Source of the DNA: a virus
Strand: one strand, 5' to 3'
Virus record (IMG/VR): IMGVR_UViG_3300006921_000024
Location: 1-48,690 of that record
Length of the DNA stretch: 48,690 bases
The notes under the pieces were generated by a model. It did not search any database and was not told the DNA's origin. It saw only the letters and a list, made by a program, of their open reading frames with translations. The position numbers and the translations under genes were made by a program. Shown here in pieces: positions 17,301 through 39,300 of the stretch (its first letter is position 1; every line of letters starts with the position of its first letter).

Positions 17301-20256
17301 CTAAACTATTTATTAGACTACTATATCCATCTAAAAACTTTTTATAATTTTGTATAGCTGTGTTAGAGAGCATTACTTCTCCTTTTTCTGCAGCATCTAA
17401 TGTTTTAAAAATTTCATAAACAGATTCTTTACTATTAAGTATCCACCTAGCAATTCCTAAATCATATCTTTTATTTGCTAAATCTAATTCAAGTTTATCT
17501 TTTTCTGCTTCTAATAAAGCTCTTGCTTTTTTACTGCTTTTACTTCTAGTTTCTTTTTGAGCTCTTTTTATTATAACTATCTTTTTTAAAAGTTGTTCTT
17601 GTACATCTTTTAAAAACTCTTCTTTTTTATTTATCTTTTTTTGGTCTTCTTTTTTTTGTTTTTGATATTTTATATCTTCTTTAGTAAACTCTCCTTGTCC
17701 TCTGTATTGTTTTAACTTATTATATTGTTGAAACTTACCGTAATCTCCTACTTGTTCTAAATTTAAAATATCTTGTGCTAAAGGAATAACAACTTGTTCT
17801 ATATCATTCCTACCTGCACTATCTATTCCTAGGGCCCAATCTAACCAAGCAGTAAAATCTTGCCATACTTGTTTAAGACTTTGCCAAAAACCAGAAGCTT
17901 CTTCTTTAATAAGCTGATCTGTTTGTTTAAATTGATTAACTATTTCAGCTGCTAATATTTTACCTAAAGCTTCTTTTCTAAAATCTTCTTCTGTTTCATA
18001 GATATCTTTATACTCTTCTTTTACTTCAGCATAAGTAGCCGTATCTACGACTTGTTCTAAAGCCTTTCTTACAGTAGGAGGACCTAAAATATATTCAGTT
18101 TCGTTTTCACTTAATAACTGCATTTCAATAGCAAAGTGAGCAACTTCTTCTGCCATAGTATCTATATTGGCTCCATCTGCAATTGCTATAAGAGAGTTCA
18201 TAAAATCAGATACTCCTAATGCATTTTCTTCAAACCTATTTGGAAATTTTTCCATAACAGATTTTAAAGATTCTACAGCAACACCATGTTTACGAGCCCA
18301 AGCAGCAAGTATTCTATCTAATTTAGCATTTGCTTTTTCAGTATTTCTAGAACTCATTTGTCTAAACATACCGTTAGCATATGGAGAATAGTAAGTATCT
18401 TCTTTTGCTGTTACATTAGCATTTTTATAACCTGCTATGTAATAATTACCTTGATAACTTTTACGCAGTCTCCAAGGCTGATCTCCAATCATATCAGACA
18501 TTCTTCTAAGCTTGCTATCTATTCTTATGATATCATTTTCTGAAAGTTCTTGTTGATATACTTCTTTAAAAAATAAATCTCTAGCTTGCTTAATTGCAGC
18601 TCTTCCTCTACTAGGACCAACTTGATATAAAATAGGAGCTGTATCTCTTTCTTTTTTTATAGTAACTTCATTCCAAGTATTACCGTTTTCATCAGTAATT
18701 TTTTCAATTTTATATCCTTGTTTTTTAAGAACATTAGTTACTCTTCTTTCATAAAAATTTTCAATAGGAGCAAGTTGTTCTATATTTTCATTTTTATATT
18801 GTTTTATTCGGTTTTCAAAAAATTTTATTTTAGTATCTATTTCTTCTCGTAATTCTGTTTCTTGGCCTCTTCTAATTACTCTACCTATTTTATTAACCTT
18901 TTTAGCAATTTTTTGTAATTCTTCTTTTGATTGTCCTTCGTATTTATAATCTTCTGAATATCTGTTTCCACTTTCATATTCTAATCTATAACTAGTAGAA
19001 GAATCTACAGGTTGATATCTTGACTTTACTACTATAACCTTGTCACTGAAATCAAACATTTCCCATTGATTATTTTTTTCAGGATTTTTAGGAGGTCTAA
19101 GTTCTAATTGTTTTGCCTCAGATAACAGCTCTTCTGTTTTTTTCATTTGGTTAGCAATAGTTTCTTGACCTTCTATTTTAGCAGCAGTTTCTCCTCTTGG
19201 AAACAATACTTTTTCATATCCTTTTCTAGCACTATCTTGAATAATTGATTTAATAAAAAATTTAATCCAATTACCATCTTTGTTTAAAAGTTGTAAAAAA
19301 TCATTTTCAGCGCTAGATCCTCCTGATTTAGTTAAAATTTCTTTATCTCTACCTTTTTGAAATAAATCAGATTGAAATTCTAGTATTCTACGGGTTTTAG
19401 AATCTGATTTGCTAAAATAACCATAACTTCCATCGGGTAAAGCTCTTACTTCTGCCTTACTATAATCTACATTACCTTCAGAATTTAAAGCCTCTTCTTT
19501 AGTTATTTGTTTAGTTGTTTCATCACTTCTAAACCAACCTATTCCTTTATCGGTACTAAAATCAGCATGACCTTTAATACCAGGTGTAATTTCAGGAGTA
19601 GATATTTCAGTTTCTATATAGTTTGTACCTCCTGGTACTGTTAAATAAGAATAATATTTAGTTGGTTCTTCTGTTATTCGGCTCTCGTTTGCTTCAATAA
19701 ATTCTTCTTTAGAAATTTCTTTATTATTTTTAGAATAAGAATATTTTGCGGGTATAAGTCCTTCTGGAGTACGGGAAAAATTTGATATTAAATTGGATTT
19801 ATATGTATCATTGCCTATTTTAAATTCCGATGCATACCAACCTGAACTATTTTCATTTGTAGCAATGTTAGTTTCAACACTAAAACTATTTTCACCAGCA
19901 ATAGCTATAGTTATATCTTCTTTAGTCATTCCTGGCTTCGCTACTTTTTTAAATATTGCTATTTGATTCGCAGGAATTCCTTGTTTTTGAAGATCATTTA
20001 TCCATCCTTGTTCTTTACCTTTTTTAAGTACGCCTCTATTAAGTTTAGGCAATATATCTATTATTTTTAATTGAGCAAGTACTCTAGAATCATCTAGACT
20101 TTTTTTAAGATTTAATTGATCTATACTAGGAAAATCTTCACTATTATTAGTATCCATCCAAACCCCTACTTTAGCAGCTAGAATAAAAGGATTGATATCT
20201 GTATCTAATAATAGTTCTTTGAACTCAGGATGGGATTTATTTATACACTTACTCAT
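14332..20256 (-). CDS. Giant polyvalent-type protein with degenerate zincin (1974 residues)
   Basis: The N-terminal third (about residues 270-540) matches the large polyvalent-protein-associated domain layout seen in phage and conjugative-element proteins. Its landmarks are GIGWFRSDE, then EFQSDLFQKGR at 293-303, NWIKFFIKSIIQDSARKGY at 329-347, a Gly/Glu turn, and FYERRVTNVLKKQGYKIE at 501-518. A zincin-like region follows with AEEVAHF at 702-708, in which the first His of HExxH is Glu. Two long Lys/Glu coiled-coil stretches (about 870-970) lead to a helical second half. The C-terminus has a hydrophobic helix (LLATLIAAVLAGIA, about 1780-1793) and an acidic tail ending in EEFNGWN. Its ATG overlaps the upstream stop by one base (TAATG). 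It is probably virion cargo ejected together with the polymerase protein. Confidence 0.85.
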   Translation of the reverse strand: MSKCINKSHPEFKELLLDTDINPFILAAKVGVWMDTNNSEDFPSIDQLNLKKSLDDSRVLAQLKIIDILPKLNRGVLKKGKEQGWINDLQKQGIPANQIAIFKKVAKPGMTKEDITIAIAGENSFSVETNIATNENSSGWYASEFKIGNDTYKSNLISNFSRTPEGLIPAKYSYSKNNKEISKEEFIEANESRITEEPTKYYSYLTVPGGTNYIETEISTPEITPGIKGHADFSTDKGIGWFRSDETTKQITKEEALNSEGNVDYSKAEVRALPDGSYGYFSKSDSKTRRILEFQSDLFQKGRDKEILTKSGGSSAENDFLQLLNKDGNWIKFFIKSIIQDSARKGYEKVLFPRGETAAKIEGQETIANQMKKTEELLSEAKQLELRPPKNPEKNNQWEMFDFSDKVIVVKSRYQPVDSSTSYRLEYESGNRYSEDYKYEGQSKEELQKIAKKVNKIGRVIRRGQETELREEIDTKIKFFENRIKQYKNENIEQLAPIENFYERRVTNVLKKQGYKIEKITDENGNTWNEVTIKKERDTAPILYQVGPSRGRAAIKQARDLFFKEVYQQELSENDIIRIDSKLRRMSDMIGDQPWRLRKSYQGNYYIAGYKNANVTAKEDTYYSPYANGMFRQMSSRNTEKANAKLDRILAAWARKHGVAVESLKSVMEKFPNRFEENALGVSDFMNSLIAIADGANIDTMAEEVAHFAIEMQLLSENETEYILGPPTVRKALEQVVDTATYAEVKEEYKDIYETEEDFRKEALGKILAAEIVNQFKQTDQLIKEEASGFWQSLKQVWQDFTAWLDWALGIDSAGRNDIEQVVIPLAQDILNLEQVGDYGKFQQYNKLKQYRGQGEFTKEDIKYQKQKKEDQKKINKKEEFLKDVQEQLLKKIVIIKRAQKETRSKSSKKARALLEAEKDKLELDLANKRYDLGIARWILNSKESVYEIFKTLDAAEKGEVMLSNTAIQNYKKFLDGYSSLINSLVEDVRVSTLNKEEGEIDDIEKAVSELRDLLAQARTRLKPLTKEKAQENIRRINRSPDGEVMDEEYDEDAAFDASQTSMWDWFKYQFGNYKNAKSPIIRAVHKLIYNAYNTVKRFSVRTARRVLNSQTLFFTKYKNEDLIEKKDDKITHYFESEYNRGDYFKNREEHRKEVAKALGFINEETGEGDPSLINKNFFTKEQSEIYSKMWEKWYTQNSETIKIPAKKDYIDDEGNLRTQVMVQKKNSNADPIWIEESDLENKKKQGYFVKNEYKQVPNQKYKNKDFAKKMQDEVFRLHYEEIMRVKREAIAKLPAAFRTDQLLYMVPSVMKSTLDRIFNADGNMFTRIKQVAQEGVMIEADDTQFGELRELDKDTVPIFFTKELKDPTKLSTDIGRSIVMFAEMAENFYQMTKISPQTNNILNSLEDKKYYKTKRGNIKEKVASEATMEYATVKEMIDSLVYGQQRETSETKIPGTNKTVSLTKITSNIARYIRNNNLAFNVPTSLAGYIKGNVDSIIEDSTGLYTTVESKNWARGEFLKEIATVVGQIGSTKQTSKMHLINQDMNIVTLDSMIYESDKSRLVRKAASGDLMYVSYATGDYGLKSRIALSVYDNYRLYDGTFITKENFLRKTAKKSGVDFGKSRSVDKAHEKSVQKEWESLREKSLYNAYEEVNGTLKIKKDFKPYINEGLLNAVRGKIEYVSNNVDGLLGETDKGKLARTYVGDFVLMHRGWFINLVDAKFQGEKTSWITGEEEIGHYTSFFGKYIPAIYRQFQDGKGLTAGWAAYDQLSKAQRRGVKKTALDLLATLIAAVLAGIAQKYADEDDDDEFVIHFTSLIMNRVLMEQKAPWSPTTMTDLVDEPIVGTKWLKSITDLGYLFNGEEVESGPYEGQTQRWKWVQKRIIPFGWKNIYELQYPEEKNKFYKQLVNKGAFSIVMLESDPEKQYSFTKWLKNNLLPSQARDWDTYQEQEKQDIYEQAIEELENEEEFNGWN

Positions 20257-23200
20257 TAGTTACATTTTAAAATATTTTCTTTCTCGTTAAGAGAAAGATT
20301 TTGCCACTCTATTTCTGTCATAATATCTTTAGTGTCTTTACCATTCATAGTTTTAATTCCATAAAGATAATCATTTAAATATTGCTCCAGTTGTCCTTCG
20401 TCATTAGCGTCAATCTCAAATTCTATAAATTCTTTATTTTCTGACAACCACGATTGTTGTTCTTTTCTTTTACTTTCATAAATTTCTTTTTCAATTTCTT
20501 TTTCTAGAGAATCATAATATTCTTCAATTTGTTCAGCTTGCTTATTTATCTCTATATTATAATCAACTAGACTATTTATTAATTTCATAGATTCATCATA
20601 AATTCTTTTGCCTTCTGGAGTATTTGTTTTTTTAGAAAATAAAGAAGTTACAAAATTTATAAATTTTTGCCAAATGCTTTCTGATTCTTGAGGAGCTTTT
20701 AAAGTTTTAACATGTTCTGCAAATTTTGCATTAGTAAAAATTTCTGCTACAAATTCTTTTTCATTAGTAAATCCATAAAAATCTATAGGATTACCGCTCA
20801 TTGTGTCTAAATCTTTTGCTTCTTGAAATAAAGCTTCTAGTTTTTTTCCAGCGTCGTTTTCTGCAGACATTAACTTATTCTTATAGACTTGTCTAATAGA
20901 AGTTTTATTGTTTTTAGTTAAACCTGTTAATTCTGTAAATTTTTCAGGAGTGATTCTACCATCAATTAAGTCTTCTTTTAAATCATCAATATCTGCTTTA
21001 TCAGTAACAGGACCTTCTGATACTTTTTGGTAACCTGAAAATTGTGAACCAAATCTTTCACCTGACGGCACTTCTTCAGAAACAAGAATTTGTTCTAAAG
21101 TATATCCATGTACCATTTCATGAAGTAAAGTATGTATAAAAACTGTTCCATTATAATTTTTTATTTTAGAAAGTGGTATAGATATTCTTCTAGTAGAAGT
21201 ATTATACCACATAATAGCGTTTACAAGAGATACATTTCTCTCAATTGCTTCCTCATATTCTTCTTCACTAAGCCATTTTATTTCAAAATCTACTTGACCT
21301 AATTTTTCAACTAATTTTGCTGTTGGAGAATCTTTAGTAATAGCTGGCCATAGTTTTCTAAGAATTTTTTTAGTACTATCATTTTTAGGATTTATAATAT
21401 TATCTATTACCATAGCTACTGATGGCCATGCTATGTCTGTAGTAAGACTGTCTGATATTAAAGTACTATCTGTTGTTAAAATACTTCTTTCTGCCTTACC
21501 TAATTGTTCTAATAATTGGTTATATAATTCTTTAAGAACTGGGTCAGTATCTGGAGTTTTATTTTCCCATTTTCTATCCATATTACGACCGCCATATACT
21601 TTAAATTCTCCTTGATTTATTTCAGCTACATATTTTTTATCGCGCCACTTTACTGTATATAATTTTGTAGTATCTTGTAATTTAGTTTTTTTAGTCGGTT
21701 GGGGTATAGGCACTTCTCCAACAGGAGGAACAGTTTTAGGTACTTCACTGTCATTTTTAATATTATCTGCTACTTCTTTACTTACTGCTAAATCAGCAAG
21801 TCTTTTAGCTTCTGTTTTCTTTTTAATATCTTCTGGAGAAGGTTTAATAGATTCTTTAATATCATTTAATGCATCAAAATCTAAAGCAACATTATTTATT
21901 CCTAAATTAGGAACTCTAATATATTTGTGTACTAGTATTTCATTATTATAACTATCTGTGATTGTAATAGAATCTGCCAATTTATAAACACTATTAGTAT
22001 AATGGTTATTTTGTTTTGTGTCAAATGCTCTAACATATTCAATAGGCTTATCATCTAAGTTTCTTAAATTTTTAGTAGCCTTATTATCCTTAATAAGTAA
22101 ATTTCCTTGTTTGTCTTTAATAACGTTATTACTTGCATAAACCTTTTGAGATTCTTCTGATAGATTTTCATAAGTAGTTTCATCTGAAGTAAAGTCAGAT
22201 TTATCATCTAATGTTTTATTAATTTTAGCAGTAGGAATAAAAGAATGTCTCCCTGAAAAGTTTCTTATAAATTGGTCCATAAATCTACCATTATATTCTC
22301 CGTCGTAATTTTTACTAAACAATCTTTTTTGCAATAATTCATTTAAAGTCAATTCTCCGCCACCGTCTTGTATCTTTAAATCATCTTGTGTAGATTGATA
22401 TTCATTTGTAAAAAACTTTACAGGAATTACATTAGCAAATGTATTAGGACCAAAATTAAATCCATTAGAAAAGAATGTATACTTAATTAAATTTTTAGCC
22501 ATTTGTACATTCTTAGGATCAGTATCTAATAACATTCTTTCCCAAGAAGCAGATAATGCTTCTATATCAGCCGCATCTTTTCCTGTTTGGTAAAACTCTA
22601 TCCTAGTTATTGGAGATCTTGCATCAGGACGAACAATATGTAATTGGTCCATTAAAGGTTTAAAAGAAGAGCCTTCTGGTAAATTTCTTTTAAATTTTAA
22701 AAGTTCTGCAGGTAAATTATTTAAGATGTCTTTTGATTGACTATGATTAAAAAACTTAAATTCACTAGCAATATAATTTAAATAATTTGAATTAACCATT
22801 TGACTTTCTTCAGCAGTTAATGTTCCTGAAGATTTGAAGTCTGTAAAACGTTCTTTTATTAATCCTAAATTAGAAAATATAATATTTGTAGGATCTGTTT
22901 CGTCAAGGTTACCAATAGTTGGAAATACTTTTTCATATACTCCTATAGGTTTATATAAACCATAAAGAGTAAATGCAGGATTCATTCTTTGTCTAGAATT
23001 TTTAGGAAGAATTATTTCATCTAATCCTAAAATTTTACTTCTACCTGCTTCTTCATCTTTTATAACTCTTCGTTGTGAGTTTAAAAATTCCCAGTCTCTA
23101 GCACCAGTTGAACCATATGCTGTAATAGCATCTGTTTTTGCTGCTTGAACTCCTCTAGATAATTCTTCTCCTATTTCATATAATTGTTCAAATAAAGCAA

Positions 23201-26200
23201 GAGCTGTTTTTTGTATTGCTGCAGATTTTGCAGTATCAGATTTTTGTAAATTACTTTCTAATAACTCAGTAGTTAATTCTTTAATAGAAGGCTGTTTTAC
23301 TTTAGAATCTTTAGTCATGTTATTACTAAGATCTTGTAGTATTTCGTTTTTAATTATACTCAATAATTGAGTCCTGCTCATAGAACCTTGTTCATTTTTA
23401 ACCCTTTGAGTAAGTTCTAAAATTGCAGGTTGGTTTATTAAAGCAAAAATAAATTCTTCGTCTACTCCTAGTCTATCTCCTAATGCTACAATATTAGCAG
23501 TAAAAGTATTAAAGTTTAAGAAAGCAGAAATAGGTTCTTTTGCATTATCAACAACCGCTGCTAATTTAGTTGCTAACGATCTTGAAATACGTTTATCTGA
23601 TTTTGATTTAGTTTCATGTAAAGAATCATAAGTTTCTCCATTAAATTCTAAAGTATCTTTTAATCTTAAATTAGTATACTGAGCTTTTGCATGATGAGTA
23701 TTATGATTTGCCATAATACCAATAAGATCTGCTCCATCCATATTACGTCTAAATAGTTCTAATTGAGTAGAAGGATATGCTATATTAAAGTCTCTATCTT
23801 TATCTAGTTTATCTGCAGCATCTCTTAATTTTTTTCCTGTTAACTTGGCCTCTTTAGTTTTGCCTGCTTTTAACAATCGTATTCGTGCTCCCATTTCTTT
23901 AAGAATATCAAAGTTACCTGGGTTAATAATTGCAGGAGCTGTATGTCTATTTTCTAAAATAGATTTTAAAATATTTATTTTATTGTTGTCTCTAGCAGCT
24001 CTTGAATTAAATTGAGTAATTTCTAGTTCTTTTCTCATCAAAGCTTTAGCAATTACATCTATAACTTGTTTCTTTTTTGCAAGAGCTTCTTCTAGAGCTT
24101 CACTTTTATAAACTAAATCTTCATCGTATTCTTCTTCATTTAAAATATCACGATAAGCTTTTATATTTTCTTTTGTTATTTGTCGTAAATCTTTAGCGTC
24201 TTGTGTACCTAATTCTTTAGATTTTTTAAGATCTTGTTTAGCCTTTCTAATTAATGCTTCTATTTCTTGAATACTAGCATTTTTATTTTTAGTAGCTAAA
24301 GCTAATTCTCTAACAACATTTTCTACCTTAGTAATAAAAAAAGGTTCTTTTGTTATTAAAGGACTTTTCGTTTGTTCTACTAACCTATCTAATAGTATAT
24401 CACTTCTAAAAATATTTTCAGCTAAATCTCTTGCTTGGTCTATGTTTTCAATACTATCGTAATACTTTACTATTTTTGGAAAATTATCTACAATTTTAAA
24501 TTGCTTAGATAAAAAATATAATTTATCAATATCAAAGTCAAGTCCTGCAATAGTAGTTACTTCTGGCGGCATTATAATAGTGTTTGCCATAGAAGGAGGA
24601 GTAAATCCTATTACTTCTATATTAAACATAGAATACTTGTCTTCCGTCGGAATTCTGTTTGCTACGATATCTAAAAGTTCAGGAGCATGCGTTTTTATAT
24701 AATCAAAATCAACTTTTCCATTTTTAGTAGGAAAAAACTTTTTAGAAGTATGGGGCATCAGTACTTGCCAAATAATTTTACCATCTTCTATTTTTAATTT
24801 AGGATGGAATTTTTCATCTACAAGCCCTAAAGCATCTTCTTCTGTTAAAGTACTTACTCCATATGAAGGAGTGTTAATTAATCCTCCTCCTTTAATTTTT
24901 TGTTTTACTACTCTATTTCTAAAAATAGAATGAAGTAAACTCTCTGTTTGGAACAAAATTCTTGGATGAAATAATGGAAGAGCCGTAGTAATTACTTGTT
25001 TAGTACCTCCTAAAATCTCATCGTTTACAGTTACTTCTACAGGAGCAATAGCTGCAAGATACTGATCTCCCATATTTCTTTCTATTGCATGTTCTCTTAA
25101 TAAAGGAATTAATTTATTGTAATTAAGAGTGCCGTCTGGATTTACCATCTCTTTTTCTACAGATTCAAAAGATTCTTTAAGATCGTCAAAAATAGTATCT
25201 TGATACATCTGAACTATTTTTTGACCAGTAACAACAGTGTTTTTTCCTCCTACATTTAAAGTATAATTTCCTTCTAAATTTATGTCTGAAATAATAAGAG
25301 TACGTAACTGAGATCCAAAATTACTTCTTTCATCTATATGGTGAGCAGGAGTTTCTTGCTGTTTTCTATAATCTGATCTATCTAATTGAAAAACTTTCAT
25401 TCCCTCATAACCTACACTTGGCTTATACCCGTCATCAGTAGACTCATAATGAGTAAATCTATTATCTGAAATATTTTTAATTCCTCCAACTTTTACTGCA
25501 GACTCAAAAAATGCTACTTCATATTTTTGATCTTGCATATCATTGTAAATAGCTGCTAGTTTAGGATATACTAGATTACCTTTTTTATCTTTTTTAAGAG
25601 CAAAAGACTTAGTTAAAACAGTTTCAGAGTTTTTAATTTGTATAGGAACTTGTGTACCATCTACATCTAATTTAGTAAACATAAAAGGTTTTAATGGAGA
25701 TGCTGGTGGATCTATTATTTTTAAATCTTCTATAGTCTCATTACCATTTTTAATTCTTTCATATGCTTTATCGTGAGCTTCTCCCCATTCTCCTAAACCT
25801 TGCAAAACTTTTTTACGGAAATCTAAAGAAACCCAAGTACCACCATCAGATTCATTATTTTGATCTTTTTTCTTACTACTTGCTTTTTCTTTCCACATTA
25901 TTTTTAATGCTTTCTTTTCAATAGCAGTCATATCTGATCTATCAATAATATCATAAATATGTTTTAGATTTTCTTGACTAGTAGGAACCATGCTATCTTC
26001 TAAAATAACTGCATCAAAAGTACCTGTGCCTGTAGTATAAGTACCAGGACTAAATATTTGTTTAAATCGTTTTTGATAATCTGTAGTACCGTTATAAAAA
26101 CTAGGATCTCCTGCAAATAAAACATTAGTTTGCATTTGGTAATAAAAAGTATTTAATAAATAATCTATAAATACTTCAGTCTGTTCAGCAGGGTTTTCTA

Positions 26201-29200
26201 ATTTTTTATCCATTACCCCTTCTGTAAAATTAATTAATCCTGTGTCTTGACTTATTGAATTTATAATTCCTGATTCTGTGTACTTTTTAACTTCTTGTTT
26301 AAAAAATCCATCTTTTTCTAAGTTAAACTCTAAAAAGTTTTCAATTTCTTTTTTTATTCCTTCTTTAGTTTTAAGGTTTTTTCCTGGAACATTATTTAAA
26401 AAAGTAAGTAATTGAAATTTTAATCCATTTTCATCAAAATTATCATTTAATAATAATGGATGTGTTGGATTATCTTTTTTAAGCTTCTTAATATATTTTA
26501 TTCTTTCTAATTCGCCAACAGCAGTTTCTGTTAATTTGTCTATAATTTCTTCTTTAGTAAGACGTTTAGCTTTTATATAATGAGCTGTAGGAGAATCAGA
26601 AGGAATTCCTAGTTTAATCATTATATTTTTCCTGTCTTTATATGCTGCTGATCTACCATAAAAAAGCCCTATACTAGTTGCTTCTAGTTCTATGTCAGAC
26701 ATCCTATTATAAGGCACAGCTTTATTTTGACCTTTTCTAGTAAGTCCGTCTAATATAACTGATGAAAATACACTTCTTAAATTTTCATCTTCTTGTAAAT
26801 CTTTTAATAAAGGAAGATTACTAAGTACTTTATCATTAGCTACAGATTTTATAAAAGCATCTAGTTGTTCTTGATTATTAAATTCAGAAAGCATTTTATT
26901 TATTTGGCCAGAAAGTATAATGTTATACTTACTTTTTCCACCAACTCCTCTAAAGCTAGAAACAAGTTCTGCATCTAATGCAGGTTCTATTATTTGAGCT
27001 AATTGTTCTACTAAACTTTTACCAGATTTTTTATCTTTACTATACTGAATATCTGTCTCAGGCATAAGACTAGTAAATGGATTCTTTCTTTTAGTAGCGT
27101 CTCTTACATATTTAGGAATATTTTTAACTACTCTTTTCCCATTTTCTACAACTTCTCTTTTTTCTATAGCATATGAATCTGCTCCTGTTAATTGTTTACC
27201 TACTTCTATAAGTACATTTAACAATTCTCCTATTTTGCCTCTCTTATATTTAAATTCTTTTCCTCCTGATTCATATATTTTCATTAGTTGGTCCGAACTA
27301 ATAGGAATATTTACTCCTGAAAGTATCTTAGCTATTCCTTCAAAATATTTACCGTTTTCAAAAAATGCTTGATTTCTTTCGTTTATTTTCTCGTCAGCAC
27401 TATCATTTATTTTATTATAAATAGCTTTAGCTCTAATAACACCATCAAAAAATTCTTTTGCTTTTGCAGCAATAATATTATCTGTAAAGTTTGACGCAGC
27501 TTTGTCTGCTCTAAATAAAGGATTAGTAGTAGATAAAAAGTTAGCTATTAAATCTTGTGATATAATATCTTTAATTCCTTTAGCATTAGAATTAAATACT
27601 CTAAATTCTCCATTAACTTCATATACACTAACAAACTGTGCATAATTTTTGCTAGCAAAATTAGTCCAAAATAATGTTCTTAATCTAGGATTATTATCAA
27701 ATATTTCAATAATATCTTTTTTCCAAGGTTTATTAAGCTTTGCAAGTTTTTCATTAAATTCTTGTAAAGTATAACTATTAGCCACTTGAGAGACTAAAGC
27801 AGCAAATACTGTTTGAGGATCTTCTACATCTTGTATACCAAAAGGAGTTACAGCTGGGCCTCCTTCAGAAGTATATTTAGGTACGTTTGCAAAGAAACTA
27901 ATTAGCTGTTGTCTCATCCCTTGTTTAGGATTCCTATTTATACTATTTGTTTGTGCTACCATATCAGTAGTAGTCTCTCCTTCTTCTACTTGCTTTATGG
28001 CTTCTTCTCCAGTAATTTGACCTGTTGAATCTTCTTGCCTAACAGCAGCTTCTGCATTATATCCCCCATAAGATATTTCAATACCTTCATTTGTTTTTAA
28101 AAATCTAGTAAATTTTTCTAATAAATCTGTGGATTCTAGAAACTCAATTTGTTGTCTATTGTTTTTTCTAACAGCTTTTTGATTGTTGGTTATTATCTTA
28201 TAAAACTTACTGTAACTATGTAGTAAAGAATTGTATTTAGCAACTGCTTTTCTATCTCCTTTAGCTTCTGCCTGTGTCTTTAAATTCTTTAATTTACCAA
28301 TATCCCTAACAACACTAGTAATAGCGTTAGTAAAAAGTACGTGTGGTCCTGATCCGCCTTTAACATTATTTTTAGGGTCTGCTTTTATTTTTAATTTATT
28401 AATAAGTTCAGGAACACTAAGCTTACCTTCTGGGTCTATCTGTTCTCTAAATCCTTGAAGAGCTTTTTTAATTTTTGAATTAAAAAATCTTAGCGCCCAT
28501 TTTTGTTCTATAGGATTAACGTATTTTCTATTAGGAGCAGTAGTTCTTTGAGATTGTCCTATAGATTGACGTATAGATCTTTTTAATACAGTGTTTTTAA
28601 ATTCAATAGAATCAGAATATACTCCTAAATTTATATTCTCAAAAAGATTATCAATATTTAAAACTTTATTCTTTTTAAAGAATACTTTAAGCATTCTATT
28701 TAATCCTTTAAAAAAAGAATTGGTATTTTTAAAATTAGCTACTCCTGCATTATATGCATCATAAGTAGGAACTCCTGTTAATCCGCTTTTCTTTTTTTCA
28801 AAAGATTCTTTACTTAATGGCTTAAGCTTATTAACTTCTTGGCTTTGTTCGTAAGCCGTAAATTTATCTGCTAAAAATTCTTCTAATTCAATAAATGTAG
28901 GCCTAACATATTGAACTTTTTTAGTGCCATCTTCTAAAGTAACTTCTTTTCTTGTCAAAGGAATCTCTTCTTGATACTTATAAAAAACTTCATTTAAAAT
29001 TTTAATTCTTTGTTCTAATGGAAGAACTAAATTAAATATAACATGGAATGCTTCGTGAGCTTCTGTGCCTGCAGGAGCAAGTTCTTGTATTAATACAGCT
29101 GCTGTAGTAAATAAACCATACAATTCATCACCGTGTTTTAAAGCTTCTTCAAGTTGCTCAAAAGATTCTTTAGGCAAATAGTTTTTTATATTTTCAAAAT

Positions 29201-30842
29201 TTCTTACAATTCTAACTGTACCACCTTTTCCTGATTCTCTTTTAAAAGATTCTCCTAATATTCTTTTAAGAGTTTCTAATCCTTTTTTTCTGGCTTTTTT
29301 AGCATCTTCTTTACTAGGAAGATCTGCTTTAGGACCCATTTTTGTTTTAAGGTTAGGATCTGCAAAAAAGTCTCCACTATCATCACTAAGACCGTCGGTA
29401 TCAATATCATCTCCTGTCTCTTCATTAGTATCTAAAAGAGTTTGTTGTTTAGCAGCTTCTTCTTCTAAAGCTTCTAATGTTTTATTTATGCCTTCTTGTT
29501 CTATTACTTCAGCACCTTCACCAGCTTCTCTTGCTTCTTGCTCTTTAGCTGCTTCTATAGCATTTTCAATATCTTCTAAAGACCCTTCTTTAAATACATC
29601 TTCTGAACTAGTCTTTTCTTTTGCTTCTTCTTTTGTTTCTTTTTTTTCTTCGGCTTGGGTAGCTCTAGCAGATCCTAATAAGTCATCCATAGATATTCCA
29701 AGACCAGCTAAATCTGCATCATCTGGAAATTCTTCGTTAAATAAAGGACTTTCTTGTTCTTTAGTAGAACTTACATCAGGATTAGGAGTACTTGCAGATT
29801 CTGCAGATTCTCCAAATTCTTCGTTAAATATTGGAGTATTTGATTTATCAAATTCTAATACTTGTTTTTTATAAGATTCTTTCTCTTCAGACGATAGTTG
29901 ATATGTTTCTAAAAAGAAAGAGCTTGAGTGAAAAAAGTTTCCATTATCGTGAAATAAATCTGTTTTAATAGCATTACTATTTGCTACTTTTTCATTATAA
30001 CCATCGCTATTAATTTGCCAGTAACTTACTTTTCTAATCCTGCCTCCTAAAAATTCAAATAAACCTGTTAAATCAGAACTAGGATACGATAAATCAAACA
30101 CTTTAACACTACCATTATCCTGAACTTCTTCCCATACTAAATCAAATTGTTCTTTTTGCCTGTCATATGTAACTTCAAATCTATATAATATATCTTCTAT
30201 AATACTTCTAGATTTTTGTATATCAGAAGGATCAGTTGCATCTCTTAAATTTTTTAATTCTTGTTTAAGAGGTTTAAAATCGTTAGTGTCTTTAACTAAA
30301 TTAGTAAACAATCTTACTGGATAATGGCCATATGCAGAAGGAACTAACATATAAACATATCCAGGTTTCATACTTGCAGCAAAATCTGTTTTACTGTTTT
30401 CTATTATTTCTTTAATTTTTTTAGATAATGGACCTGTTCCTGTATGAATATTTTCTAATCGAGTATCTCCTTCTGAACTATTTCCTAACTTAACACCTGT
30501 TCTAGTTTTTATAACAAGCATTAATTGATTGTCTTTATCTCCTCGTGCATCTGCGGCTTGTTGAAGTAAAGTAGCTGGATTATTTTTTAAAGGTTCTGAT
30601 CTGTTTTTAGGATTTTTACCTACATTAAGGTTTCTTTGAATTTTTCTTCTAATTCTTAATTCAATAGGTTTTTTAGTAATAGATGTTTTAGGTTGGTTTT
30701 TAATTTTAGAAGAATCTAATTCAAACTCTTTTAAAGAGATTACTTGATCATTTACTAATTGATCTATTAATCCATTTTCTAAAATAGATTTAAATTCTGC
30801 TTCTGTTCTAAATGAACCGTCGTACCAATATTTACAAGCCAT
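20256..30842 (-). CDS. Giant virion RNA polymerase-like protein with two zincin domains (3528 residues)
   Basis: Likely the phage-encoded single-chain RNA polymerase carried in the virion. The catalytic signature is LDFDIDKLYF at 2101-2110 (Asp2102, 2104 and 2106), preceded 39 residues earlier by RIPTEDKYS at 2063-2071. In bacterial beta-prime the order is RAPTLHR, then about 35 residues, then NADFDGD. N-terminal to this lie an acidic low-complexity linker (about 340-515) and a zincin domain with HEAFH at 596-600 and a likely third ligand in IELEEFLADKF (651-661). C-terminal lies a second zincin, LLHEMVHGYT with HEMVH at 3241-3245, plus EFVAEIFTN at 3363-3371. The start MACKYWYDG resembles other phage giants. 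Known crAss-like virion polymerases use the same DxDxD motif and transcribe early genes after entry. The protein is translationally coupled (TAATG) to the polyvalent protein. Confidence 0.85.
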   Translation of the reverse strand: MACKYWYDGSFRTEAEFKSILENGLIDQLVNDQVISLKEFELDSSKIKNQPKTSITKKPIELRIRRKIQRNLNVGKNPKNRSEPLKNNPATLLQQAADARGDKDNQLMLVIKTRTGVKLGNSSEGDTRLENIHTGTGPLSKKIKEIIENSKTDFAASMKPGYVYMLVPSAYGHYPVRLFTNLVKDTNDFKPLKQELKNLRDATDPSDIQKSRSIIEDILYRFEVTYDRQKEQFDLVWEEVQDNGSVKVFDLSYPSSDLTGLFEFLGGRIRKVSYWQINSDGYNEKVANSNAIKTDLFHDNGNFFHSSSFFLETYQLSSEEKESYKKQVLEFDKSNTPIFNEEFGESAESASTPNPDVSSTKEQESPLFNEEFPDDADLAGLGISMDDLLGSARATQAEEKKETKEEAKEKTSSEDVFKEGSLEDIENAIEAAKEQEAREAGEGAEVIEQEGINKTLEALEEEAAKQQTLLDTNEETGDDIDTDGLSDDSGDFFADPNLKTKMGPKADLPSKEDAKKARKKGLETLKRILGESFKRESGKGGTVRIVRNFENIKNYLPKESFEQLEEALKHGDELYGLFTTAAVLIQELAPAGTEAHEAFHVIFNLVLPLEQRIKILNEVFYKYQEEIPLTRKEVTLEDGTKKVQYVRPTFIELEEFLADKFTAYEQSQEVNKLKPLSKESFEKKKSGLTGVPTYDAYNAGVANFKNTNSFFKGLNRMLKVFFKKNKVLNIDNLFENINLGVYSDSIEFKNTVLKRSIRQSIGQSQRTTAPNRKYVNPIEQKWALRFFNSKIKKALQGFREQIDPEGKLSVPELINKLKIKADPKNNVKGGSGPHVLFTNAITSVVRDIGKLKNLKTQAEAKGDRKAVAKYNSLLHSYSKFYKIITNNQKAVRKNNRQQIEFLESTDLLEKFTRFLKTNEGIEISYGGYNAEAAVRQEDSTGQITGEEAIKQVEEGETTTDMVAQTNSINRNPKQGMRQQLISFFANVPKYTSEGGPAVTPFGIQDVEDPQTVFAALVSQVANSYTLQEFNEKLAKLNKPWKKDIIEIFDNNPRLRTLFWTNFASKNYAQFVSVYEVNGEFRVFNSNAKGIKDIISQDLIANFLSTTNPLFRADKAASNFTDNIIAAKAKEFFDGVIRAKAIYNKINDSADEKINERNQAFFENGKYFEGIAKILSGVNIPISSDQLMKIYESGGKEFKYKRGKIGELLNVLIEVGKQLTGADSYAIEKREVVENGKRVVKNIPKYVRDATKRKNPFTSLMPETDIQYSKDKKSGKSLVEQLAQIIEPALDAELVSSFRGVGGKSKYNIILSGQINKMLSEFNNQEQLDAFIKSVANDKVLSNLPLLKDLQEDENLRSVFSSVILDGLTRKGQNKAVPYNRMSDIELEATSIGLFYGRSAAYKDRKNIMIKLGIPSDSPTAHYIKAKRLTKEEIIDKLTETAVGELERIKYIKKLKKDNPTHPLLLNDNFDENGLKFQLLTFLNNVPGKNLKTKEGIKKEIENFLEFNLEKDGFFKQEVKKYTESGIINSISQDTGLINFTEGVMDKKLENPAEQTEVFIDYLLNTFYYQMQTNVLFAGDPSFYNGTTDYQKRFKQIFSPGTYTTGTGTFDAVILEDSMVPTSQENLKHIYDIIDRSDMTAIEKKALKIMWKEKASSKKKDQNNESDGGTWVSLDFRKKVLQGLGEWGEAHDKAYERIKNGNETIEDLKIIDPPASPLKPFMFTKLDVDGTQVPIQIKNSETVLTKSFALKKDKKGNLVYPKLAAIYNDMQDQKYEVAFFESAVKVGGIKNISDNRFTHYESTDDGYKPSVGYEGMKVFQLDRSDYRKQQETPAHHIDERSNFGSQLRTLIISDINLEGNYTLNVGGKNTVVTGQKIVQMYQDTIFDDLKESFESVEKEMVNPDGTLNYNKLIPLLREHAIERNMGDQYLAAIAPVEVTVNDEILGGTKQVITTALPLFHPRILFQTESLLHSIFRNRVVKQKIKGGGLINTPSYGVSTLTEEDALGLVDEKFHPKLKIEDGKIIWQVLMPHTSKKFFPTKNGKVDFDYIKTHAPELLDIVANRIPTEDKYSMFNIEVIGFTPPSMANTIIMPPEVTTIAGLDFDIDKLYFLSKQFKIVDNFPKIVKYYDSIENIDQARDLAENIFRSDILLDRLVEQTKSPLITKEPFFITKVENVVRELALATKNKNASIQEIEALIRKAKQDLKKSKELGTQDAKDLRQITKENIKAYRDILNEEEYDEDLVYKSEALEEALAKKKQVIDVIAKALMRKELEITQFNSRAARDNNKINILKSILENRHTAPAIINPGNFDILKEMGARIRLLKAGKTKEAKLTGKKLRDAADKLDKDRDFNIAYPSTQLELFRRNMDGADLIGIMANHNTHHAKAQYTNLRLKDTLEFNGETYDSLHETKSKSDKRISRSLATKLAAVVDNAKEPISAFLNFNTFTANIVALGDRLGVDEEFIFALINQPAILELTQRVKNEQGSMSRTQLLSIIKNEILQDLSNNMTKDSKVKQPSIKELTTELLESNLQKSDTAKSAAIQKTALALFEQLYEIGEELSRGVQAAKTDAITAYGSTGARDWEFLNSQRRVIKDEEAGRSKILGLDEIILPKNSRQRMNPAFTLYGLYKPIGVYEKVFPTIGNLDETDPTNIIFSNLGLIKERFTDFKSSGTLTAEESQMVNSNYLNYIASEFKFFNHSQSKDILNNLPAELLKFKRNLPEGSSFKPLMDQLHIVRPDARSPITRIEFYQTGKDAADIEALSASWERMLLDTDPKNVQMAKNLIKYTFFSNGFNFGPNTFANVIPVKFFTNEYQSTQDDLKIQDGGGELTLNELLQKRLFSKNYDGEYNGRFMDQFIRNFSGRHSFIPTAKINKTLDDKSDFTSDETTYENLSEESQKVYASNNVIKDKQGNLLIKDNKATKNLRNLDDKPIEYVRAFDTKQNNHYTNSVYKLADSITITDSYNNEILVHKYIRVPNLGINNVALDFDALNDIKESIKPSPEDIKKKTEAKRLADLAVSKEVADNIKNDSEVPKTVPPVGEVPIPQPTKKTKLQDTTKLYTVKWRDKKYVAEINQGEFKVYGGRNMDRKWENKTPDTDPVLKELYNQLLEQLGKAERSILTTDSTLISDSLTTDIAWPSVAMVIDNIINPKNDSTKKILRKLWPAITKDSPTAKLVEKLGQVDFEIKWLSEEEYEEAIERNVSLVNAIMWYNTSTRRISIPLSKIKNYNGTVFIHTLLHEMVHGYTLEQILVSEEVPSGERFGSQFSGYQKVSEGPVTDKADIDDLKEDLIDGRITPEKFTELTGLTKNNKTSIRQVYKNKLMSAENDAGKKLEALFQEAKDLDTMSGNPIDFYGFTNEKEFVAEIFTNAKFAEHVKTLKAPQESESIWQKFINFVTSLFSKKTNTPEGKRIYDESMKLINSLVDYNIEINKQAEQIEEYYDSLEKEIEKEIYESKRKEQQSWLSENKEFIEFEIDANDEGQLEQYLNDYLYGIKTMNGKDTKDIMTEIEWQNLSLNEKENILKCN

Positions 30843-30874: not shown

Positions 30875-33800
30875 TTAACATTTCTTTTGTCCCACATACT
30901 GAGTCCCTTGCATAAGAGCTTTATCACCAAGAGCTTTTATAATACTTTTAAAGTTTTTATCTATTACTTTTCCTCTAGCACTCTGTTCTACTTCTGTTTC
31001 TACTTCACTAGTTTGTTGTGTTGGTTGTATTTCTGAAAAGTACTTATTGGTACTCACAACTTTACTACTGTCAACATTAGATAAAGTTTTGTCTATATTA
31101 GACTTCCATGAGTCTAAGTCTTCTGTATTATCACCTCTTTTAGTAGCCCTTTCTATAAAAGTTTCCTTGCTAGTATTTATTACTTTATCAAAGTCAGATT
31201 CATTTTCTTTTAAAAACATCATGTCGGACACAAGTAGCATTTTTCCTGTTTTCTTAGATTCAGAAACAGCTTTTTTCCAAGCTTTTCTCATTTCAACTTT
31301 AAAATCTTCTTCAGAATTGTTTTTTCTCCATTCATTTAAACCCTTGCTATTTTGCTTGTTTTTAGGCAAACCTAAAGCTTTAGCTATTGCGGGTTTAAAG
31401 TCAGTGTCAAAATCTATTGCATTTTCAGGATTGCTTTTTTTGAATGTAGTTTTACCTAAACCTGGATGAGCCCATATTATTTTGTCGCTAGCTTCTACTT
31501 CTGTTTCTGGTGCAACTTTTTTAGTTTTTCCAAAATCTATTTTATTTTCTGATAGTAGTTGTAATACTTGTGAATCAGAAAAAACATTTTTTATATCAAA
31601 TATAGAACTCTGTTCCGATATCTCGTCATATTCTTCTTTACCAACCCGTTTAAATCTCTCATAATATCTTCCTGATTGTTTAATTAAATCTAAATTATTT
31701 TTAATGAATTCGTTTATTTTATTGTCTACAAATTGTTCTATAGGATTCACTATTTGCACTAGAAAATCCATTACATCTTTATTATCTTCTAATTTTGTTA
31801 AATCTGGACGATTTACTTCATCAGAATTAATTAAGTCTTTTAAATCTTTTGACATGTTTAAAGGCTCAGTCTCACTCGCTTTAACGAATTGAAATTGCCA
31901 AACTATAGCTAATTTATTCTTTTCTTCCTCACTTAATTCTTCAAATGATTTTTTACTATTTAAGAAATTTATTATAGTTTTTTTATTAGCTTCTTCTTCA
32001 GCTTTAGTAGCTTTAGTAGCTTCTACTTTTACTTCTGCTTCAGGTGTAGTAGTTTCTTTAGTTTTTGTTTTAGTTTCAGATTTTTTCTGACTCCACTCTG
32101 CAAAAGTTTGATCAGTTTTTCCTTCATAACGTGCTTTAACAAAATCTTTAATGGATTGCACTTCATTTATAAAATTACCATAATCTCTAGCAAGTATTTT
32201 ACCTATAATATCTTGAGCTTTTTCAACAGTATCTTGTTTAAGAGCTTGTTTAATTTTAGATTCTATTATCTTATATTCTTGTTTTAAATAATCTTGATAT
32301 TCTTTATAGGTTTCTGGATATACTAATTCACCTTTTGCATTTACTACTTTTGGATATAGAGATTCTATTCCTGTAGCTCTTCTATTATTAAAAGATTCTT
32401 CACTGATTTCATATATTTGAATAGGATCAGATGGAACGATTCCCTCGTCTGTTAAAGGTAAATCTTTTCTAATATGTAGTTTTGTTATAGGAATTTTATT
32501 ATTTATGTCCCAATCTTTTGGCGTATCTGTAATAGGATCTTTAGTAGTTTCTGTTTTAGGAGCTGCAGGAACAATTACAGCTTGGTATCCTGAATATTCT
32601 TGAGTAACAGCAGTATCTTCTTTACCTAAAATAGTTCCGTCTTTATCGACTTTCCCGTTGTATAGCGCTTCTCTAAGAGCTATTGAGCTTGGATCAGAAG
32701 TTGCTACAGGAAGCCTTCCTATAAATACGTCTCCGTGAAAAACATTAATTCCTATATTAGAAGCACCATATTTAGTTTTGTCTCCATACTCATCTTCACT
32801 AAATTTAAATGTAGCTGTTACATTCTTTTTTTCTAGATATTCATTACTTAACCAATCAGGAGAATTAACCAACTTCATATTATATCCTTTAATATCAGGT
32901 TGATTAGAAGGTCCATCTTTATCATACCACTCTACTGGTTTTCCATCTGCCCCAGGTTCTGCACCTACTAATTTTTTTGTGTCTCGATCAAATAATATTT
33001 TTTTTTCATTTATTGTGGGAATAACTCCTTTAGTATCTTCTTCGATAAGCTCATCTAGCATTGAGTCTAGAGTAACTGCTTCTTTAGTATCTTCTTCAAA
33101 GCCTTCGTTGCTAGGTTCTGGAGTTGTATTTTGTACTTTTTTATTTCCAGGATTAGTTAATGCATCAGAAATTTCTTCTATAATATTTTCAAAATTATTG
33201 TAAATAGTAGCAAATGCATTAAGAAAATTATCTTTGAATTCTTGATTATCTTTAAATTGATCTATATTGTCTAAAGAAAATTTTAAACCATTAGGCATTT
33301 GATCTCTATTATTTAGTACTTCAAAAATATGTTCTATTAAATTTGTATTTTTTCCGTCTTTTAAAAGATCTATTATTTCTTCGTAACTAAAACTTTCTGT
33401 ATCAGATAATTTACTTTTTAGTTTATTTAATTGCTCTGTAATTTTTTCAGAGTTAGCAGGCAACTCCTCTTTAAATATTTGTCGATAATTATCTAAAACT
33501 GTTTTTAGGCTAGCAGCATCTTGTTTCTTTTCTACTGCTTCTTCAGCCTGTTTTCTAACATTGTCTAACAGCTCTTCTTGAAATCTATTTTCTAATTCTG
33601 CTTGTAACGTTAACCATTTATTAGCCCCTTTTTTTGTAAATAGAGTAGAATAAATTTCTGAAATTTTTGCTCTTCTAGATTTAATTTTAAAAATATCATT
33701 AACTAAACTTTTAATTTCATCTTTGTTTAAGTTATAATTTTCAAAATTTTCTTCTTTTATATTACTTAATATTTCAGAAATAAAACTATCTAACTTTTTC

Positions 33801-36346: not shown

Positions 36347-39300
36347 TATTTTATAATGTTATTCATTCTTTTAGGATCTCGATAAATACTAGGATTTAAA
36401 TTTGCCAAAACTAAAGGAACTCTTCTGCCTCCTTTAGTAGTATATTTTAAATTATTTGTAGCTCCTGTACCAAAAGTTAAATCTAACTTTGCTAAAGCAG
36501 TAGGCAAATTAACTTGGTTACTTATAGTAAGTGCGGGTAAATCTGTTTGACTTACTATTTCAAAACTATCTGCATCTCTTATTACTTCTGTATATTGTAC
36601 TTTAATTTCTCCGTCTTGTGTTTGATATCTAGCATTATATTCTCTAGTAACAACGTTTCCATTAGCATCTTGAAAAGGATCACTAATTACTCCTTGACTA
36701 GCTGCAGTTTGATTTATTTCTGAATCTATTCCGTTTAAAGCTCTGTATTGTAAAGTATTAGCAAACTTATTATAACTAGCAGCTATTTCAGGACTAGAGG
36801 CCATATAAAAAGGAGCATAATTTGCTCTTTGTTTTTCTATAAATTCTATTCTACTATCTTCGTTAGCTATTGTGCTAGCACTTTCTATATAATCTACAAA
36901 GTTTTCAGTAATTTGTTCAACAGGTTTTTGACTTAATCCTGCAGAACTTATATATAAAACGTCAGGATTATTTTTCTGCATCTTGTTTAAATCTGCTTGT
37001 GAAAATTTTACTTGTGCATTTTCTTTCATTGCTTTTCGAGTCGAAGCAGCAACAGGAGTACTTCCTTTATCTACGTATTCTTCCCATTCTTTAAGATTTT
37101 GATTTTGATCAGTAAGAGCAGATTTTCTATAAAAAGCTATAATAACATTATCATTTTGATCTATTCCTGCAAATCTAGGATTATCTGTTCTATAGGCATC
37201 TAATGTAAATGAATGTGCTAATCCTCCAGGGTCTAACTCAACACTTTGTCTTGTAGAAGGGTCCCAAAAAACTCTAAAGTTCTGAGAACCTCTTGATAAC
37301 ATACTATCCTCTACTAAAGATTTAAACTGCCCGCCAGAAAATTTATCAGAACTTTCGTCAATAACTATTTCAGGTATTTGATAAAACTGTTCAGTTCCTA
37401 ATGTTTTAGATTTTCTATAGTCTTTAAAAATTTTATTAATTAAAAGCTCTCCTGGATTAAAACCAAGATCTACATTTTTTAAAGCAGGCCCTATTTCACG
37501 ATCTAATTCTTCATATCTCATAAACAATTCTCCTCTAGCAGTTCTTTGTTCTTCAGGTAAATCTTCATACCCTTCCTCCATAGTATCTGTTCTCATCTCT
37601 AAATAATCTTCTACAAGCATAGTTTGCTCATCTTCAGTTAAATCTTCAAAGTTTTTTCCTAAAAATTGTACAGAAGCATCCTTTAAAAGTTGATCATATT
37701 CAGCATCAAGTTTTTGAGTTAACTCTCTGCCTTCTTTTTTAGAACTAGATTCTATTGTATTTAAAAGATTATTAAGAAATCGAGGACTACTTACAGTATT
37801 ACTATTAAAGTTTTCTTTCATCATTCTAACACTTTTCAAAATATCTTCATCAGACATTTCTAAAACTCCTGCGCTATCTTTTATAAGTTGAACTAATTCT
37901 TCTTCAGGTTTATCATGTAAATAATCTGTAACTAAATAATCTAAATCTTTTAATTGAGAAGTTTTTAAAAATTGAGCTTGGTATTTTTCTCGTCTATCAG
38001 TTGCTATTAAACTTTCTAATTCCGCTATTTCTTCATCTTTTAAATTAGGATCTAATAATTTTGTTTGATTTAATTTTATATTATCCCCTAATTTATTAAT
38101 TCTAGCATCAAACATTTCTTCATATCCTACAGTAGTTTTAGCATATTCATTGTTTTCAAATTCTATAAATCCTACAGCATCTGTTATTTTATTCTCTGAT
38201 CTTCTAGTAGGAGTTTCTTTTAAAGTACTTAAAACATCTGATGTAAAATATATACCATTTATTAATTGGCCGTCTGTAACATTGTTTTGATATAATTCTC
38301 CAACACTACTAGCAGGTTCTATAGTAACTGTTTTTTGAATTTCTTCTCCAAATTCATTTAAATCAGTCATAGTATATTCAACAGGTTCTAATTGTAAGTT
38401 TTCTTCTGCTGCTCCTGGCGCAGTTCCTCCTGCGCTAGAAGATTCTTTCATAACGTTAACAGGATTTAGTTGAGTATTAATAGTCAATGCTTGAGCTTCT
38501 TTTATTTTTTCATTCTTTTTACTATTTCCTCCTGAAAAAGTAATAGCCCCTTCATTAATAAAATCTACTACGTCAGCTCCTGCTAAAGCAATTTTATCAA
38601 AGTATCCCATTTGCTCTGCTAGATAAATTCCTCCAGCTTCTTGTTCTATTGCATCAGGGTCATTACTGTCTAATAAAGAATAAAGTTCTCCCATCTTTTC
38701 TTCATTCTCTTTTAGAGTTTGATTTAACGTTGCTTTTTGTTCTTCACTAAGATTATTATATTCTTCTTCGTTATTTTTTAATTTTGTAAGATCATCTACA
38801 ATTTCTTGTAGTTCAGGAATAGCTCTTTTTATAGCATTTTTTGAAAAATAAAGAGGATCTTCTTCTTCAGACATTCCTTGAAGCACTGCTTTTTTAGCTT
38901 GATCATTTTTCATAAAAAACTCCATCTGAGCTTCTTCAGCTTTCCAATTTTTAAATCTATCTCCTGTAAGAATAAAGTTTCTTATAGATCTTTGAACGTC
39001 TCCTATTTCTATAGATTTAATTAATTGTTGACTTACTTGTCCTGGATCAGCATTTGGATTAGTATTTAAAATAGCATTTAATTGTTGTGAAGAGTTTTCC
39101 ATGCCTGCTATTTGTAAAACTTTATCTTCTAACTCTTTCTCTAAATTAAAACTTTTAGGACTAAAGTCTCCAGTATTATAAGTTCCTGTTGCCTTATCGT
39201 AATTGGTTCCTTTAAATTTATTTCTAACATTATAATCCCAAAGCTCAAAATCTTTTTCAGTCATGTTTGTTCCATCTACTCTATCTCGCATAATTTTATA

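Follow-up and report, generated by a model that had tools for sequence, protein, structure and literature searches.

A crAss-like virion-type RNA polymerase and its giant neighbor proteins carry terminal cysteines that suggest a chemically coupled train

Introduction

Does a DFDID motif within a protein of 3528 residues mark an RNA polymerase, and how might a phage carry such a protein, together with two further giants encoded beside it, into its host? These questions are raised by a linear virus record of 48.7 kb, the whole of which was analyzed in the present study and is referred to below as the window. A preliminary description of this DNA regarded the protein as a strong candidate for a virion RNA polymerase (RNAP) and considered that this identity explained a crAss-like gene layout. 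RNAPs with a DxDxD motif have already been published for crAss-like phages (PMC7886860), and the presence of the enzyme in the virion and rifampicin-resistant early transcription are known for phi14:2, and partly for crAss001, only (PMC10136315, PMC10172136). We herein describe the evidence for the identity of the polymerase and a pattern of terminal cysteines that links it to its neighbors.

Materials and Methods

The RNAP (protein B) and its neighbors, the gp47/g067-like protein A and the gp49/g065-like protein C, were compared with sequences in the PDB, Pfam, PHROGs, phage records, and IMG/VR. A profile including phi14:2 gp66, which retrieved the gp66 structure 6VR4 at 5e-228, was circular and was replaced by one constructed from the window protein and 34 IMG/VR relatives, with gp66 itself left out. 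In the analysis of cysteines, a Cys was counted when it lay in the first 12 or last 10 residues of a protein; homology served to assign A and C, and the motif to assign B. This rule was fixed before it was applied to a held-out set of 73 new loci, which were less than 90% identical to the discovery set and to each other.

Results

Gene block of the window

A plus-strand replication block encoding an SNF2-type helicase, DnaB, Sak4, a primase, an AAA ATPase, and an exonuclease converges on a minus-strand virion block, which encodes a glucosaminidase protein, a cargo protein 1 domain, and the three giants A, B, and C (Table 1). The order A-B-C (gp47/g067-, gp50/g066-, and gp49/g065-like genes) is that of g067-g066-g065 in phi14:2, and, taken with the PF25725 domain and the convergent replication block, it bears out the crAss-like layout that had been proposed. 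Protein C also matched a virion structural protein in PHROGs (phrog_37651, E 1.8e-23), and no sequence match was found for the 1097-aa protein beside protein A. The 48.7-kb fragment does not contain the Crassvirales capsid block (TerL, portal, MCP, IHF, and gene 75); the cargo protein 1 domain and the transcription block are present.

Table 1. Positions of the features discussed in the window
Feature	Position	Strand	Basis
Giant crAss-like virion RNAP (protein B), 3528 aa	20256..30842	-	homology to 6VR4, phage and IMG/VR relatives
RNAP catalytic core as modelled, aa 1440-2630	22953..26525	-	AlphaFold2 and Foldseek
DFDID, Mg-binding Asp triad D2102/D2104/D2106, aa 2102-2106	24525..24539	-	alignment to gp66, invariance
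RIPT, aa 2063-2066, R2063 and P2065 invariant	24645..24656	-	motif scan, alignment
Zincin-like metallopeptidase domain, aa ~540-800	28443..29225	-	homology to crAss001 gp47 C-terminus (2125-2325)
HEAFH, zinc-ligand motif, aa 596-600	29043..29057	-	motif, invariance
Second HExxH (HEMVH), aa 3241-3245	21108..21122	-	resembles N-terminal part of phi14:2 g065
Cys3 of RNAP, junction-facing N-terminus	30834..30836	-	
Cys3527 of RNAP, junction-facing C-terminus; only other Cys in 3528 aa	20262..20264	-	
Protein A, gp47/g067-like giant, 1823 aa	30875..36346	-	blastp crAss001 gp47 E 1e-19, Dulem41 E 2e-24
Cys1823 of protein A, last residue, only Cys	30878..30880	-	
Protein C, gp49/g065-like giant, 1974 aa	14332..20256	-	blastp crAss001 gp49 E 3e-19, phi14:2 g065 E 2e-14
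Cys4 of protein C, only Cys	20245..20247	-	
Probable second cargo protein, 1097 aa, no Cys	36346..39639	-	position beside protein A
Cargo protein 1-like (crAss_CARG1, PF25725), 1158 aa	39643..43119	-	E 5.3e-28

Several additional features of the window were noted. The cargo protein 1-like protein contains an isolated CxxC (aa 495 and 498), unusual in a nearly Cys-free block, and this may be a redox or zinc site. Parts of this protein and of the protein at 45633-48347 match adjoining segments (299-417 and 237-304, respectively) of one Dulem virus 41 protein; cargo protein 1 thus also appears to be split in the window, with the glucosaminidase gene in between, and there is no terminal Cys at the break. 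A plus-strand gene at 7276-8496, directly 3' of the primase and ahead of the AAA ATPase, encodes a DUF2201 VWA-like protein or putative metallopeptidase (PF13203, PF09967) with an HELLH motif, and crAss001 gp52 is likewise annotated as VWA-type. A Mom-like DNA modification protein (PF25680, E 4.5e-25) is encoded at 112-783 on the plus strand.

Identity of protein B

The translation of the ORF confirmed DFDID at Asp2102, Asp2104, and Asp2106, with RIPT 39 residues earlier, as first described. The 3528-aa protein contains three DxDxD motifs (aa 479, 2102, and 2347) against a chance expectation of approximately 0.95, and the bare motif was dropped as evidence for an RNAP. Since DxDxD alone is not above chance in a protein of this length, the motif needed independent support, and it is homology that identifies the protein. 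A structural protein in which the motif is decayed or due to chance would be in keeping with this count and with the lack of any match to protein B in Pfam and PHROGs, but this reading is contradicted by the sequence, fold, and invariance evidence given below and may be dismissed with near certainty.

A phmmer search of all PDB sequences returned one strong match, 6VR4, the virion RNAP gp66 of phi14:2 (E 3.7e-24), in the alignment of which DFDIDK stands opposite DFDIDK and RIPT opposite RIPN. A tblastn search with aa 1500-2700 matched 98 phage records, the majority of them from crAss-like phages; crAss001 gp50, annotated as a "putative RNA polymerase", and phi14:2 g066, annotated as a "catalytic RNA polymerase subunit", were among the matches. 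Relatives in IMG/VR were found at 13 and a further 80 loci. The profile without gp66 matched 6VR4 at E 1.3e-206 over 1085 positions. Single-query scans with the RNAPs of Suoliviridae and Intestiviridae found almost nothing.

In an alignment of 35 sequences with a mean identity of 22%, only 13 columns were invariant, and these include R2063, P2065, S2071, G2100, D2102, F2103, D2104, D2106, and K2107. The spacing from R-x-P to DFD is the same in nearly all of approximately 85 related loci. The replacement by Ile of the Gly in DFDGD, which had been pointed out at the outset, is real and is normal for the family, phi14:2 having DFDID and crAss001 DFDVD. The protein does not meet the criterion for a multisubunit-type RNAP, namely, a canonical NADFDGD with separate beta and beta-prime subunits, because DFDID lies in a single chain.

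The AlphaFold2 model of aa 1440-2630 (pLDDT 85.2, pTM 0.84) had 6vr4_A as its sole significant PDB match in Foldseek (E 3.8e-38, TMq 0.69, probability 1.0), and cellular RNAPs appeared in this fold search only at E > 0.2. It had been argued that a fold without a double barrel, or an unrelated one, would refute the assignment; the match to 6VR4 means that this did not occur, although the barrels were not inspected in the coordinates.

The view of protein B as a strong virion RNAP candidate is supported by four independent lines, namely, homology, fold, invariance, and synteny, and its identity as a crAss-like virion-type RNAP homologous to phi14:2 gp66 and crAss001 gp50 is scarcely open to doubt. 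The RNAP itself is a new member of a known family. Its location in the virion and its activity are inferred from phi14:2 and crAss001 only; delivery in the virion, which has not been demonstrated for this phage, is very probable on this analogy, and identity and delivery taken together are held with the same high confidence. DFDID is the true active site, where Mg binds, of a DNA-dependent RNAP of the crAss-like virion type that has both barrels in a single chain. By analogy, the enzyme probably travels inside the capsid, enters the cell along with the DNA, and transcribes early genes prior to the takeover of host transcription.

Zincin domain and sliding gene borders

Regarding the N-terminal region of the RNAP, aa 564-782 matched the C-terminus of crAss001 gp47 (blastp E 1e-6), and the zincin residues H596, E597, and H600 and the distal Glu, E655, were invariant in 38 sequences. 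The model of this domain (pLDDT 71) had no neighbor among PDB structures; therefore, the metallopeptidase call is based solely on the HExxH...E pattern and its invariance, together with the zincin annotated in crAssphage. The crAssphage annotation, carried over to cr110_1, already names a zincin fused to an RNAP-associated protein. The gene border follows the zincin domain in crAss001, Dulem41, and L050 and precedes it in the clade of the window, and the region of the second HExxH shows weak similarity to the N-terminus of phi14:2 g065 (E 3e-4 to 2e-3). Pieces that belong to the neighbor proteins in other crassviruses are found in the first ~900 aa and in the C-terminal tail of the RNAP. The shift of the zincin and the similarity to g065 indicate sliding borders between the giants, which occur in every state of fusion (A|B|C, AB|C, A|BC, and ABC). 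Variable borders were previously noted for the zeta group (PMC7886860).

Among the relatives, long-form RNAPs (3,000-6,060 aa; L048, L061, L068, L095, and others) have an HEA[FYE]H zincin approximately 1,250-1,550 residues before DFDID, and some have additional HExxH sites; short-form RNAPs (approximately 2,000-2,500 aa) are without a zincin. A tail motif of approximately [ED]x[WF]xxLSxxEKxxxI..C is located on the RNAP in the clade of the window and on A in Dulem41, L050, and crAss001, and this common motif resembles a portable docking tag.

Cysteines at the junctions of the giants

Proteins A, B, and C of the window comprise 7,325 aa with only four Cys, one at each end that faces a neighbor protein. 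The chance of four Cys landing one in each five-residue junction tail is approximately 5e-12. The replication-side proteins have 10.3 Cys per 1000 aa versus 0.7 for the whole virion block.

The same pattern was observed in the relatives. In the discovery set (approximately 85 loci), a Cys was present at 216 of 227 junction-facing ends versus none of 124 outer ends, and in the held-out set of 73 loci at 171/172 versus 0/101, the single miss being a Cys 11 residues from the end; both sets together give 387/399 and 0/225. Fisher P was < 1e-74 in each set. As the sequences are related, counts matter less than lineages; single-linkage clustering of the discovery RNAPs gave 17 groups at 35% identity and 32 at 40%. 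Several of the 11 discovery exceptions have probable technical reasons, namely, unrecognized AB fusions (L061, L068, and L078), a frameshift (L023), a wrong start (L047: MKIYC), and an interrupted ORF (L049). In protein A, the Cys is 31 residues from the end in L082 and 11 in L230, and the split RNAPs of L033 and L083, which may reflect frameshifts or introns, have no Cys at the new break.

Complete A-B-C fusions (n=8, three from the discovery and five from the held-out set; e.g., 5,005-5,639 aa) have no Cys, either internal or terminal, and extra pieces arising at extra breaks have one at both ends (L068, 1167 aa, C4 and C1166; L011, 288 aa, C4 and C287). ORFs of 157-165 aa lie between the giants in several lineages, in the A-B gap (L006, L008, L009, L012, L013, L020, and L026) or the B-C gap (L031 and L044); they were rejected as members of the chain because they lack terminal Cys, and are probably not virion parts.

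The rule holds in Steigviridae, Suoliviridae, and, after start correction, Intestiviridae; the corrected starts of crAss002 gp33 and cr110_1 gp40 both read MSC.... Protein A is encoded on the opposite strand in crAss001, DAC15, and cr116_1, and, among the A C-termini examined, the Cys is kept in crAss001 and cr116_1. The terminal Cys are also retained in gut lineages that have as many as 21 internal ones. The codons of the junction-end Cys are TGT in 199 cases and TGC in 17. The Cys pair goes with the cut between one protein and the next, even when domains lie across it, and not with a domain, a gene strand, or a codon. The rule is almost certainly a real, selected feature.

Discussion

Comparison with known systems

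Among the closest known systems is phi14:2, the gp66 of which shares the catalytic core, the DFDIDK motif, and the gene order of the window. It also has a single Cys per junction end (g067 C1797; gp66 C3 and C2179; g065 C3). However, gp66 has 2180 aa against 3528 in the window RNAP, with a core identity of 23-26%, and has neither the N-terminal zincin domain nor the long C-terminal tail. In crAss001, gp50 and its partners gp47 and gp49 are homologous to the three giants and have terminal Cys at the junction ends; differences from the window are that gp47 is encoded on the other strand, the zincin is C-terminal in gp47 instead of N-terminal in the RNAP, and the motif is DFDVD.

The vRNAP of phage N4 (gp50, 3500 aa), the fold of which is that of a T7-like single-subunit RNAP, is similarly a giant injected virion polymerase without internal Cys, but it has no terminal Cys either (0 Cys) and stands outside any three-protein chain. 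In Thermus phage P23-45, gp96 is a giant virion protein with a two-barrel DxDxD RNAP and also a metallopeptidase domain (PMC10770324), as in the window RNAP, whereas it is clamp-less and belongs to a tape measure protein in a phage with a long tail; no match was found between the two sequences. QDE-1, a eukaryotic RNA-interference polymerase, is a two-barrel single chain with structural elements in common with gp66 (PMC10770324). The window RNAP had no direct sequence match to QDE-1, and the likeness is only via gp66.

A proposed disulfide-linked train

On this reading, the RNAP is one of three giant cargo proteins, A, B, and C, the genes of which lie side by side. We propose that, at each cut, the C-terminal Cys of the upstream protein and the N-terminal Cys of the downstream protein may form a disulfide in the virion, which would give A-S-S-B-S-S-C, functionally equal to the fused forms. 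Head-to-tail coupling would maintain stoichiometry and order in packaging and in a threaded, partly unfolded ejection, in the manner of a train, and the reducing host cytoplasm would then set the separate enzymes, including the polymerase, free. Previous findings on crAss001 are consistent with parts of this model: mass spectrometry found gp47, gp49, and gp50 in virions, and inter-protein disulfides are present in the tails (PMC10172136).

The main rival, which is not excluded, is that the terminal Cys coordinate a metal (Zn or Fe-S) where A meets B and B meets C, or attach the proteins to other virion parts, without a disulfide. The pattern shows only that each junction-facing end requires a Cys, and a nearby His is conserved in some protein C heads (CINxSHPEF). 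However, each end has a single Cys, and neither a second Cys nor a His is conserved across lineages; a four-ligand site is thus not evident, and a pair of single Cys fits a disulfide best. We consider metal binding or anchoring to be possible but rather unlikely.

Considerably less credible is a role outside the protein, with the Cys as relics of former polyprotein ends or as translation or recoding signals at gene borders. The occurrence of A, B, and C fused in all combinations may be cited in its favor, but both TGT and TGC are used, the rule persists with gp47 on the other strand and when the cut crosses a domain, and Cys are absent at outer ends and in the unrelated small ORFs between the giants. 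Equally improbable is the avoidance of Cys alone, whereby injected giants must be Cys-free and leftovers persist at the ends, where they do least harm: N4 vRNAP, like its neighbors gp51 and gp52, is entirely free of Cys, and the lack of Cys reported in N4-like vRNAPs has been tied to passage through the tail (PMC3715699, PMC3915230), but avoidance predicts no Cys or random ends and is already contradicted by the outer-end control, and the retention of terminal Cys beside up to 21 internal ones indicates that it is not the cause on its own.

Disulfide coupling as the chemistry of the rule, which is inferred because no disulfide has been shown, is hence somewhat favored. A point against it is that bond formation would need to take place either after assembly, within a host that is reducing and often anaerobic, or following release. 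For the overall reading, a redox-releasable train held by inter-protein disulfides, with gene fusion as an interchangeable substitute, in most or all RNAP-bearing crassviruses, we estimate a probability of approximately 0.55. There has been no experiment on this phage, and virion location, activity, and any disulfide remain unproven. The terminal-Cys pattern is new here, its occurrence being observed and its chemistry inferred; no earlier report was found in the crassvirus literature that we were able to cover, which did not extend to the phi14:2 structure paper or to most subscription papers.

Implications for crassviruses

The rule is of practical use in annotation because it flags start codons in need of correction, such as those of crAss002 gp33 and cr110_1 gp40. 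If the proposed coupling is true, it would represent a device for delivering very large proteins under redox control, which may be usable in the design of protein delivery. Crassviruses are among the most abundant viruses of the human gut, and the mechanism by which they package megadaltons of protein and eject them ahead of the DNA is open. Partial unfolding and extrusion have been proposed, but not how order and linkage are kept (PMC10172136). The near-exceptionless Cys rule across the order suggests that the RNAP and its two neighbors travel as a chemically coupled train, and it offers a concrete, testable mechanism for this process.
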